Assembly (NCBI GenBank): GCA_024403995.1
Contig: JAKSQT010000016.1
Span: forward strand, 1 to 37,743
Reading direction: 5' to 3'
From: Ruminococcus sp.
GTDB taxonomy: Bacteria > Bacillota > Clostridia > Oscillospirales > Ruminococcaceae
DNA length: 37,743 nucleotides
The stretch's first letter is position 1. Every line of letters starts with the position of its first letter. The notes below the pieces were generated by a model. The model saw only the letters and a list, made by a program, of their open reading frames with translations, did not search any database and was not told the DNA's origin. Shown piece after piece: positions 16,116-17,588 of the stretch. The position numbers were made by a program, and so were the translations under genes.

Positions 16116-17588
16116 ATGGGATTAATTCAGAAAATTGCCCAGGGACTCAAAAAAACCAAGGATTTCCTGTTCGGCGGTATCCAGCGTGTGCTCAATAAGT
16201 TTACTGTCATTGACGACGAACTTTTCGAGGAACTCGAAGAACAGATGATAATGAGTGATATCGGCGTTGAAACTTCCGAGCAGATATGCGAACAGCTCCG
16301 CAAGAAGATCAAGGAACGTGGAATTACCGACCCGAAGGAGATAATGGAGCTTATCCACGAGGTTATCTCCGAAATGATGGGCGACGATACAGGCCTTGAC
16401 CTCAGCGTTTCACCTGCCGTTATCATGGTTATCGGCGTAAACGGCGCAGGCAAGACAACAACTATCGGCAAACTCAGCCACCAGTTCAAGGAGGAGGGCA
16501 AGAAAGTCCTCGTTGCCGCCGCTGATACGTTCCGTGCCGCCGCTATCGAACAGTTACAGGTCTGGACTGAGCGTGCAGGTGTCGATATCGTCAAGCATAC
16601 CGAGGGTTCTGACCCGGGTGCTGTTGTGTATGATGCTCTCGATGCCGCTCAGGCAAGAAAGTGCGATGTTGTAATTATCGATACCGCAGGCAGACTTCAC
16701 AATAAGAAGAACCTTATGGAGGAACTTGCAAAAATCAACCGAATTATCGACAAAAAAGCTCCCGAAAGCTCCCGTGAGGTGCTCCTCGTTCTTGATGCCA
16801 CAACAGGTCAGAATGCCGTAAGTCAGGCTCGCCTTTTCAGCGAAACTGCGCCAATTACGGGTATCGTTCTCACCAAGCTCGACGGTACGGCTAAGGGCGG
16901 TATCGTTATCTCGATAAAGAATGAACTCGGCATTCCTGTCAAGATGATAGGCGTAGGCGAAAAAATCGACGATTTACAGCCGTTTGACAGCCGTATGTTC
17001 GTTGATGCACTGTTCTCGTCAATGCCTGAACGTGAAAGTGATGAAGATGATGACGAGAAGCCGGAAATTGCAGATGAATCGGATGAGATCGAGTCTGAAA
17101 CAGAGGATAATGAACCTGAAACTGCCGAAGCTGAGCCTGAAACTGTTGAAAATGAGCCGGAGACTGAGGTAATTGAACCTGAAACTGTTGAAAATGAGCC
17201 GGAGACTGAGGTAATTGAACCTGAAACCGTTGAAGCTGAGCCTGAGACAGAGGTAATTAAACCTGAAACTGTTGAGACTGAGCCTGAGACAGAGGTAATT
17301 GAACCTGAAACCGTTGAAGCTGAGCCTGAGACAGAGGTAATTGAACCTGAAGCTGTTGAGACTGAGCCTGAAACAGAGGTAGTTGAAACTGAAGCTGTTG
17401 AGACTGAGGAAAATGAGACTCCGGCTGACAGTATGCCTGACAACGAGCCTGTTGAAAACGTTGAAAACTCCGAGGCTGAAAGTGAAGAAGCCGCTGAAAA
17501 TACAGAGGAAGAACCTGAAAAGAAGAAAAAGCGTGGTTTCTTCAGCAGACTTTTCGGCAGAAAGGGCAAGGATGACGATGATAAATAA
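16116..17588 (+). CDS. ftsY: Signal recognition particle receptor FtsY with C-terminal acidic repeat domain
   Basis: FtsY receives SRP-ribosome complexes at the membrane. Residues 1-303 are a complete NG domain: N domain with [21 protein letters not shown]1 [10 protein letters not shown] (107-116), [16 protein letters not shown] (189-193), [10 protein letters not shown] (253-262) and [12 protein letters not shown]. Residues 304-468 are a Glu/Pro/Thr-rich acidic tail with about six 14-residue repeats ([14 protein letters not shown] type, residues 340-423). The last 22 residues are basic/amphipathic, [17 protein letters not shown], then DDDDK. FtsY normally carries an acidic A domain and such a membrane-targeting helix at the N-terminus, so the order here is reversed. 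The gene is 10 nt after smc; GGAGG precedes the ATG. Confidence 0.97.
17133..17411 (+). repeat. 42-bp tandem repeat inside ftsY
   Basis: Six in-frame 42-bp units start at 17133, 17175, 17217, 17259, 17301 and 17343, followed by a partial unit from 17385. Each encodes a variant of EPETVE-x-EPETEVI. Units 3 and 5 are almost the same, as are parts of 4 and 6, so a longer two-unit period may have been duplicated. Unit number is likely to vary between strains. Confidence 0.9.

Follow-up and report, generated by a model that had tools for sequence, protein, structure and literature searches.

An A-domain-like acidic arm on the C-terminal side of the GTPase in the SRP receptor FtsY of Ruminococcus

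The ftsY gene of a Ruminococcus genome raises the question of what a long acidic extension behind the GTPase, tipped by a basic-aromatic motif resembling the beginning of Escherichia coli FtsY, contributes to an SRP receptor. The gene lies in the window, i.e. the whole stretch of 37,743 nucleotides that was analysed (contig JAKSQT010000016.1, assembly GCA_024403995.1), and its features are collected in Table 1. The match to TIGR00064, which exceeds the equivalog cut-off, covers residues 33-300, the Pfam domains SRP54_N and SRP54 were found at residues 18-82 and 100-300, and by sequence comparison the GTPase residues are conserved. Judged by model score and domains, the protein is FtsY, the SRP receptor, which guides freshly synthesised proteins to the cell membrane. 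The gene is flanked by an SMC gene on one side and on the other side by genes for Ham1/RdgB, YhbY, a cytidylyltransferase-like protein, an HD-domain protein, LytR, RsfS and leucyl-tRNA synthetase. For the Ham1/RdgB gene, in-frame ATG codons were also found at 17572 and 17596. The open reading frame, its coordinates and the domain limits given in the original prediction were all correct, but the protein does not end with ...GRKGK as claimed there; the last residues had been left out, and GKDDDDK follows.

Table 1. Features of the ftsY gene and its product in the window
Feature	Position	Strand	Basis
ftsY coding sequence, 490 amino acids, stop included	16116..17588	+	TIGR00064, 371.8 bits against a cut-off of 260.7
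NG domain, residues 1-303	16116..17024	+	Pfam SRP54_N and SRP54; AlphaFold2 fold up to helix 292-300
N-terminal helices aN1 (residues 3-28), ordinary FtsY membrane helix, N-terminal position retained	16122..16199	+	AlphaFold2 helices 3-10 and 12-28; alignment with E. coli FtsY from residue 194; hydrophobic moment of residues 2-18
Acidic disordered linker, residues 304-468	17025..17519	+	D/E content; pLDDT; majority-residue share 0.38
42-bp tandem repeat, 6.6 copies, encoding the repeated EPETV..EPETEVI units of the linker	17132..17408	+	Tandem Repeats Finder
Basic-aromatic C-terminal tip, residues 469-483	17520..17564	+	Alignment of 17 tails; share 0.92 without motif filter; synonymous codon variation
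Terminal GKDDDDK, residues 484-490, variable acidic cap	17565..17585	+	Share 0.49
Overlap of the ftsY 3' end with the likely start (17578) of the next gene, Ham1/RdgB	17578..17588	+	Start codons; Pfam Ham1p_like

The extension following residue 303 comprises 187 amino acids, 79 of which are aspartate or glutamate, and the repeat unit of its linker consists of 14 residues containing E, P and T. In the AlphaFold2 model, run with 21 sequences, the NG fold begins with helices 3-10 and 12-28 (aN1) and closes with helix 292-300. Structure was also sought after residue 303 and none was predicted, with block-mean pLDDT values of 33-47 for residues 301-490; within this region the tip showed no helix at block-mean values of 40-47, a result that does not decide for or against lipid binding.

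A BLASTP comparison with E. coli FtsY resulted in three non-collinear matches, which represent the same parts in permuted order. Residues 2-301 matched residues 194-494 of the E. coli protein with an identity of 49%, the acidic residues 298-479 matched residues 8-199 with an identity of 29% and an E value of 2e-4, and residues 469-483 matched residues 3-18 with 12 of 16 positions identical. These matches bear out the claim that the acidic region and a motif strikingly similar to the E. coli FtsY start are located C-terminally. Both proteins comprise an acidic low-complexity domain tipped by KxKKRGFFS.L, an NG core and aN1, tip and acidic domain are combined on one arm of NG, and both arms are acidic and poorly conserved. 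In E. coli, however, the arm precedes NG, whereas in the window protein the start codon lies at aN1 and the arm follows NG. The likeness of the two acidic parts is compositional.

The claim that a membrane-targeting motif had been moved did not hold, as the amphipathic helix aN1 is still N-terminal: residues 2-18 align with the E. coli helix at the border of the A and N domains, and their hydrophobic moment was equalled by just 0.8% of the shuffles. Since aN1 remains in place, the tip is an added second motif. Amphipathicity of the tip did not appear in this measure, its moment not being above that of the shuffles (62% for a 12-residue piece, 8% for GFFSRLFG). The controls from E. coli fail as well (31% for MinD, 41-46% for pieces of FtsY aA1), and therefore the comparison is uninformative for pieces of 8-16 residues.

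A second resemblance leads to the C-terminus of E. coli MinD, KKGFLKRLFGG, which shares the FF/FL..LF spacing and the K/R flank with the window tip. The tip fits the pattern of MinD-type membrane-targeting sequences, i.e. a short, basic-hydrophobic C-terminus with a K/R flank and hydrophobic residues at i, i+1, i+4 and i+5 (GFFSRLFG compared to GFLKRLFGG), and according to PMC6158289 the helix of Bacillus subtilis MinD is a transplantable C-terminal anchor. The window tip differs from MinD in its position on an SRP GTPase behind an acidic linker of more than 150 amino acids, and the likeness implies no coupling to ATP-driven dimerisation. A search for MinD in the genome of the window gave no match over the family cut-off, the best match being a ParA/Soj-like protein. 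A ParA/Soj-like ATPase of this genome (L239) ends with PKKKRRGIFSFNKNSGKE, another basic-aromatic C-terminus.

A C-terminal extension as such has a precedent in archaeal FtsY, for which PMC2905702 describes a C-terminal repeat region (R region, with EPVP/EPVV/EPTP repeats) and assigns no function to it. Likened by description alone, both extensions are C-terminal, repetitive and E/P-containing and follow NG. The archaeal region is, however, proline-rich, and no basic-aromatic tip is mentioned in that description of it, whereas the repeat of the window is bacterial and acidic. Within the order, most of the relatives read are NG-only proteins, which comprise the same NG core starting directly with aN1 and lack both the acidic extension and the tip. 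FtsY of the Lachnospiraceae type (L176, L184, L189, L197, L198, L205) starts with nearly the same KKRGFFSRL letters as the Ruminococcus tail; there the letters are N-terminal and fused directly to aN1, and no acidic domain is present.

The mapping of acidic and tip parts over the FtsYs of the family, as suggested in the original prediction, revealed C-terminal arms beyond the genus, in some related gut bacteria. In the family sample of 197 genomes, 33 FtsYs with an open frame of at least 345 amino acids were examined among the matches listed. Twenty of these carry a C-terminal extension of at least 80 amino acids, so that the sample contains such forms in at least 11 genera including that of the window, while the other 13 showed merely an upstream frame or an N-terminal arm. 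Besides the KKKGFFSRLF type, the tips comprise GKFGFLFKEITFGKKKK in a group of six genera (in one of them, g37, as KLNWLFKDIKLSKK), GFFDFFRRKKK and SFFDFFRRKKKK, WLFMEIGG plus WFSFGKK, and, in a distant group of named loci, KKKGFFGRLFG and RRGLFGFFNRHS. Two long extensions end without a basic tip (YGSIDKFYL in L164, YGSVGKFYF in L193), and another terminal motif may exist there. Despite these different letters, the composition of the ends is alike: in 59 distinct extensions of at least 80 amino acids, the last 35 residues contain 9.0 F/W per 100 amino acids compared to 1.7 elsewhere and 23 K/R compared to 3.6, and 58 of the 59 have at least two F/W in this part. The same holds true for the 26 extensions from outside the genus (F/W of 9.5 compared to 1.4; 25 of 26 with at least two F/W), though their tip sequences differ. 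In some Ruminococcus FtsYs (L021, L041, L314), further copies of the motif, e.g. KKKGFFGKLFGG and KQRFFSKFA, occur inside the acidic linker besides the terminal one, as if duplicated.

Not only FtsY, but also other proteins of the family end in this manner. A profile built from the alignment of 17 Ruminococcus tails found similar C-terminal tips on SecA-like proteins (L042, L050, L057, L060) of other genera, with a tail of the KKGFFxKLFG type after a short linker; these partial sequences score near the SecA and SecA2 models alike and lie below both cut-offs. The same kind of tail ends a polyphosphate kinase (L044, L053), the diadenylate cyclase CdaA (L047) and the PRC-barrel sporulation protein YlmC/YmxH (L062). 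In the genome of the window, a PqqD-domain frame of 132 residues (L037:1150-1545) ends with KKGGFFSKLFHK, a weak match to the profile (E 0.04). Further matches were not C-terminal, lying near the N-terminus (L056, L059) or inside longer frames (L046, L049, L054, L055, L061, L063). At E<=0.005, the profile matched 19 of 194 family genomes outside the genus, with an FtsY as the best match in two of the 19, compared to 2 of 148 other genomes of the phylum sample. Judged from their letters, such tails may share an attachment to the membrane. Apart from these proteins, a frame of 161 residues in two Ruminococcus genomes (L299, L304; L299 without a Pfam match) ends with KNKGFFSKLFGR, and a related frame of 177 residues (L303) with KNKGFLSKLFGRKG.

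Lipid is not the only conceivable partner of such a tip. Other candidates are the SecYEG/YidC translocon, the ribosome or rRNA, and the acidic linker of the same molecule, which the tip would bind in cis as an intramolecular switch. The close vicinity of a strongly basic tip and a strongly acidic linker would fit the latter, PMC5533587 links the A domain of E. coli FtsY to contact with the translocon, and the missing helix in the AlphaFold2 model also favours a partner other than lipid. However, similar tips end proteins without a known role at the ribosome or translocon, such as polyphosphate kinase and CdaA, and they resemble lipid-binding tails. Moreover, what the different clades keep is the basic-aromatic character and not the sequence, a pattern more in keeping with lipid than with a protein. 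We therefore regard a non-lipid partner as rather unlikely.

The permuted order of the parts also raises the question of their history. The original prediction had proposed a swap of domain order, and a true swap would mean that an ancestral N-terminal A domain with aA1 was transposed to the C-terminus, or lost after a duplication, so that the parts would be homologous to those of the N-terminal arm. Trees of the NG domain were calculated after removal of loci repeated under other identifiers (L036, L058, L074, L097), one locus whose frame ends early in the repeats (L132), truncated rows and identical NG domains. In the tree of 151 rows, the extended proteins do not form one clade and 8 state changes were counted, and 7 changes were counted in a tree of 52 rows picked by hand from these. 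With the 52 rows, forcing all C-extended proteins into one clade costs 303.7 log units (AU test, p 8e-67), and forcing the GFFxRLF type alone costs 254.8 (p 4e-82). A single clade of all C-extended forms was thus rejected by the trees and the AU test, and the C-terminal arrangement does not trace simply to one ancestor. As the trees are unrooted, gain and loss of the arm are not separable.

N-terminal arms do exist in the neighbourhood. One clade near the C-extended ones (L089, L098, L162, L204) has a basic-aromatic N-terminal arm of 50-65 amino acids starting with MGLFDRWKKK, MGLFSRKKN or MGLFDKFKKKK, and consequently both arm positions are found in one family. The survey beyond the family covered one phylum, that of the window, to which two E. 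coli proteins were compared; its sample comprised 149 genomes, 139 of them with an FtsY at E<=1e-80. Among 29 other frames of at least 345 amino acids examined there, none had a C-terminal extension of at least 30 amino acids (the largest were 25 and 22); several showed the E. coli order with an N-terminal arm beginning MFRKLFGRGKKKK, MFKKLFGRKKKEK or MLRRLFGSRNAKK, and others a mere upstream open frame. Altogether, 209 distinct complete proteins include 18 with an N-terminal arm (at least 20 amino acids) and 59 with a C-terminal arm (at least 80 amino acids), in a non-random set chosen partly by length and with a rough composition heuristic for the N-terminal arm that mislabels some frames (at least L190 and L191 of the 18 look spurious). 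None of the 209 combines an N-terminal arm with 30 or more amino acids at the C-terminus.

For a true swap speak the permuted BLASTP matches with the 12 identities in the tip, the N-terminal arms with MFRKLFGRGKKKK-like starts elsewhere in the phylum, and the neighbouring clade with its N-terminal arm. On the other hand, the match of the acidic parts is compositional, the C-extended forms are spread over the tree with differing tips, and aN1 stayed in place. Most of the near relatives read are proteins of 301-325 amino acids with neither arm. The observation of permuted parts stands, but the relocation of an A domain already present is not the most economical history for them: the majority of near relatives lack such a domain, and the extended forms do not group as a single clade. 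We consider a true swap very unlikely.

Within the genus, the tail was followed in a set of 40 related genomes, 24 from the same genus and 16 from other families of the order. Among the 24, a complete FtsY with the tail was found in 17, an FtsY interrupted by the contig end in 3, an acidic end of 21 amino acids without the tail in 1, and fragments only or no FtsY in 3. The 16 genomes of the other families showed no such extension (10 were read, 6 judged from open frames of 290-321 amino acids). At E<=0.001, the profile matched 107 of 125 genomes of the genus, a count that may include a few tails on other proteins; of 30 matched loci fetched, 29 could be read as FtsY C-termini, while the frame of the remaining one is cut to 47 amino acids. 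Among the 18 genomes missed, the FtsY stops 15-23 residues behind NG in 5, has a basic-aromatic tip that has diverged further in 3, is cut by a contig end in 3 and has a frame that stops short of the NG end in 1; in the other 6, no match exceeded the FtsY cut-off. The tip is accordingly not essential everywhere, since five genomes of the genus have an FtsY that ends just behind NG.

In the 17 complete extended proteins of the genus, taken without motif filter, the mean share of the majority residue was 0.92 for NG and 0.92 for the tip, whereas the linker reached 0.38 and the last seven residues 0.49. With 21 rows, after addition of four further genus proteins (two from the family sample and two that the profile had missed), the values in the same order were 0.91, 0.88, 0.35 and 0.46. 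These unfiltered rows are the ones relied on, as an earlier count on 32 proteins had chosen its rows by the motif itself and was partly circular. On the DNA level, the residues K, G, L and R of the tip each use several synonymous codons in 37 distinct tail-coding sequences, which were chosen by a pattern fixing K, G, F, F and F, so that some of the invariance is circular. As the synonymous codons vary, selection acts on the tip peptide.

These values also bear on the idea that extension and tip are nearly neutral, i.e. that repeat expansion added an acidic tail whose tip has a minor or condition-specific role, for example in solubility or turnover. The free variation of linker length and repeats and the five armless genomes of the genus would agree with it. 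Since the tip is conserved like the GTPase in the unfiltered proteins, and basic-aromatic tips recur in other clades, we give this idea little credence. An artefact or a DNA-level signal deserves practically none: although the linker is a DNA tandem repeat and the last ftsY codons overlap with a likely start of the following gene, a misassembled, fused or separate gene is ruled out by the profile matches across the genus and by the presence of the tail in R. flavefaciens ND2009, MC2020 and SAb67, whose records carry no metagenome-assembled label, and conservation through the overlapping start by the synonymous codon variation in the tip, as the overlap touches the variable end alone.

The most satisfactory explanation, which we consider probable, is that the window FtsY is an SRP receptor with an A-domain-like module C-terminal to the GTPase, which would serve as the functional counterpart of the A domain. 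According to PMC5533587, E. coli FtsY contacts the membrane in a Dynamic mode through its first 14 residues (aA1) and in a Stable mode through aN1; the acidic A domain restrains the Stable mode, and SRP binding drives the change. By analogy, the tip would make weak, dynamic contacts with anionic lipid and keep free FtsY near the membrane, the acidic linker would stop a premature binding of aN1, and on meeting SRP aN1 would engage the membrane stably. The N- and C-termini of SRP GTPases are described as closely apposed, and most SRP receptors as reduced to NG (PMC2572998). Because the termini of the NG core adjoin, an arm could be built on either of them. The conservation of the tip like the GTPase core and not of the linker, the likeness to aA1 and MinD tails, the enrichment of F/W and K/R in the ends, the absence of both-armed proteins and the similar tails on other proteins suggest this C-terminal counterpart of the A domain. 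The moment of the tip not exceeding that of the shuffles, the lack of an AlphaFold2 helix, the Ruminococcus genomes without the arm and the two extensions without a basic tip (L164, L193) count against it, the first of these with the caveat that the E. coli controls fail as well.

A broader reading, which can be put forward only tentatively, is that an acidic, lipid-tipped FtsY arm is independent of its position and has grown several times on the C-terminus. In the Oscillospiraceae, it might use a shared tail of the KKGFFxRLF type that may also send SecA-like proteins, polyphosphate kinase, CdaA and others to the membrane, as a small local code for peripheral attachment.

In the literature searched, which mostly excluded subscription papers, no paper was recognisable as a description of a C-terminal A-like domain in bacterial FtsY. 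The A domain is treated as the N-terminal part of the receptor in PMC5533587 (2017), where its precise roles are called unclear. The present findings draw attention to a short C-terminal tail motif that recurs on unrelated proteins of the family. Furthermore, nature provides a ready comparison for the function of the arm and the importance of its position, as receptors carrying it C-terminally occur next to close relatives that lack it or have a stub of 15-25 residues.
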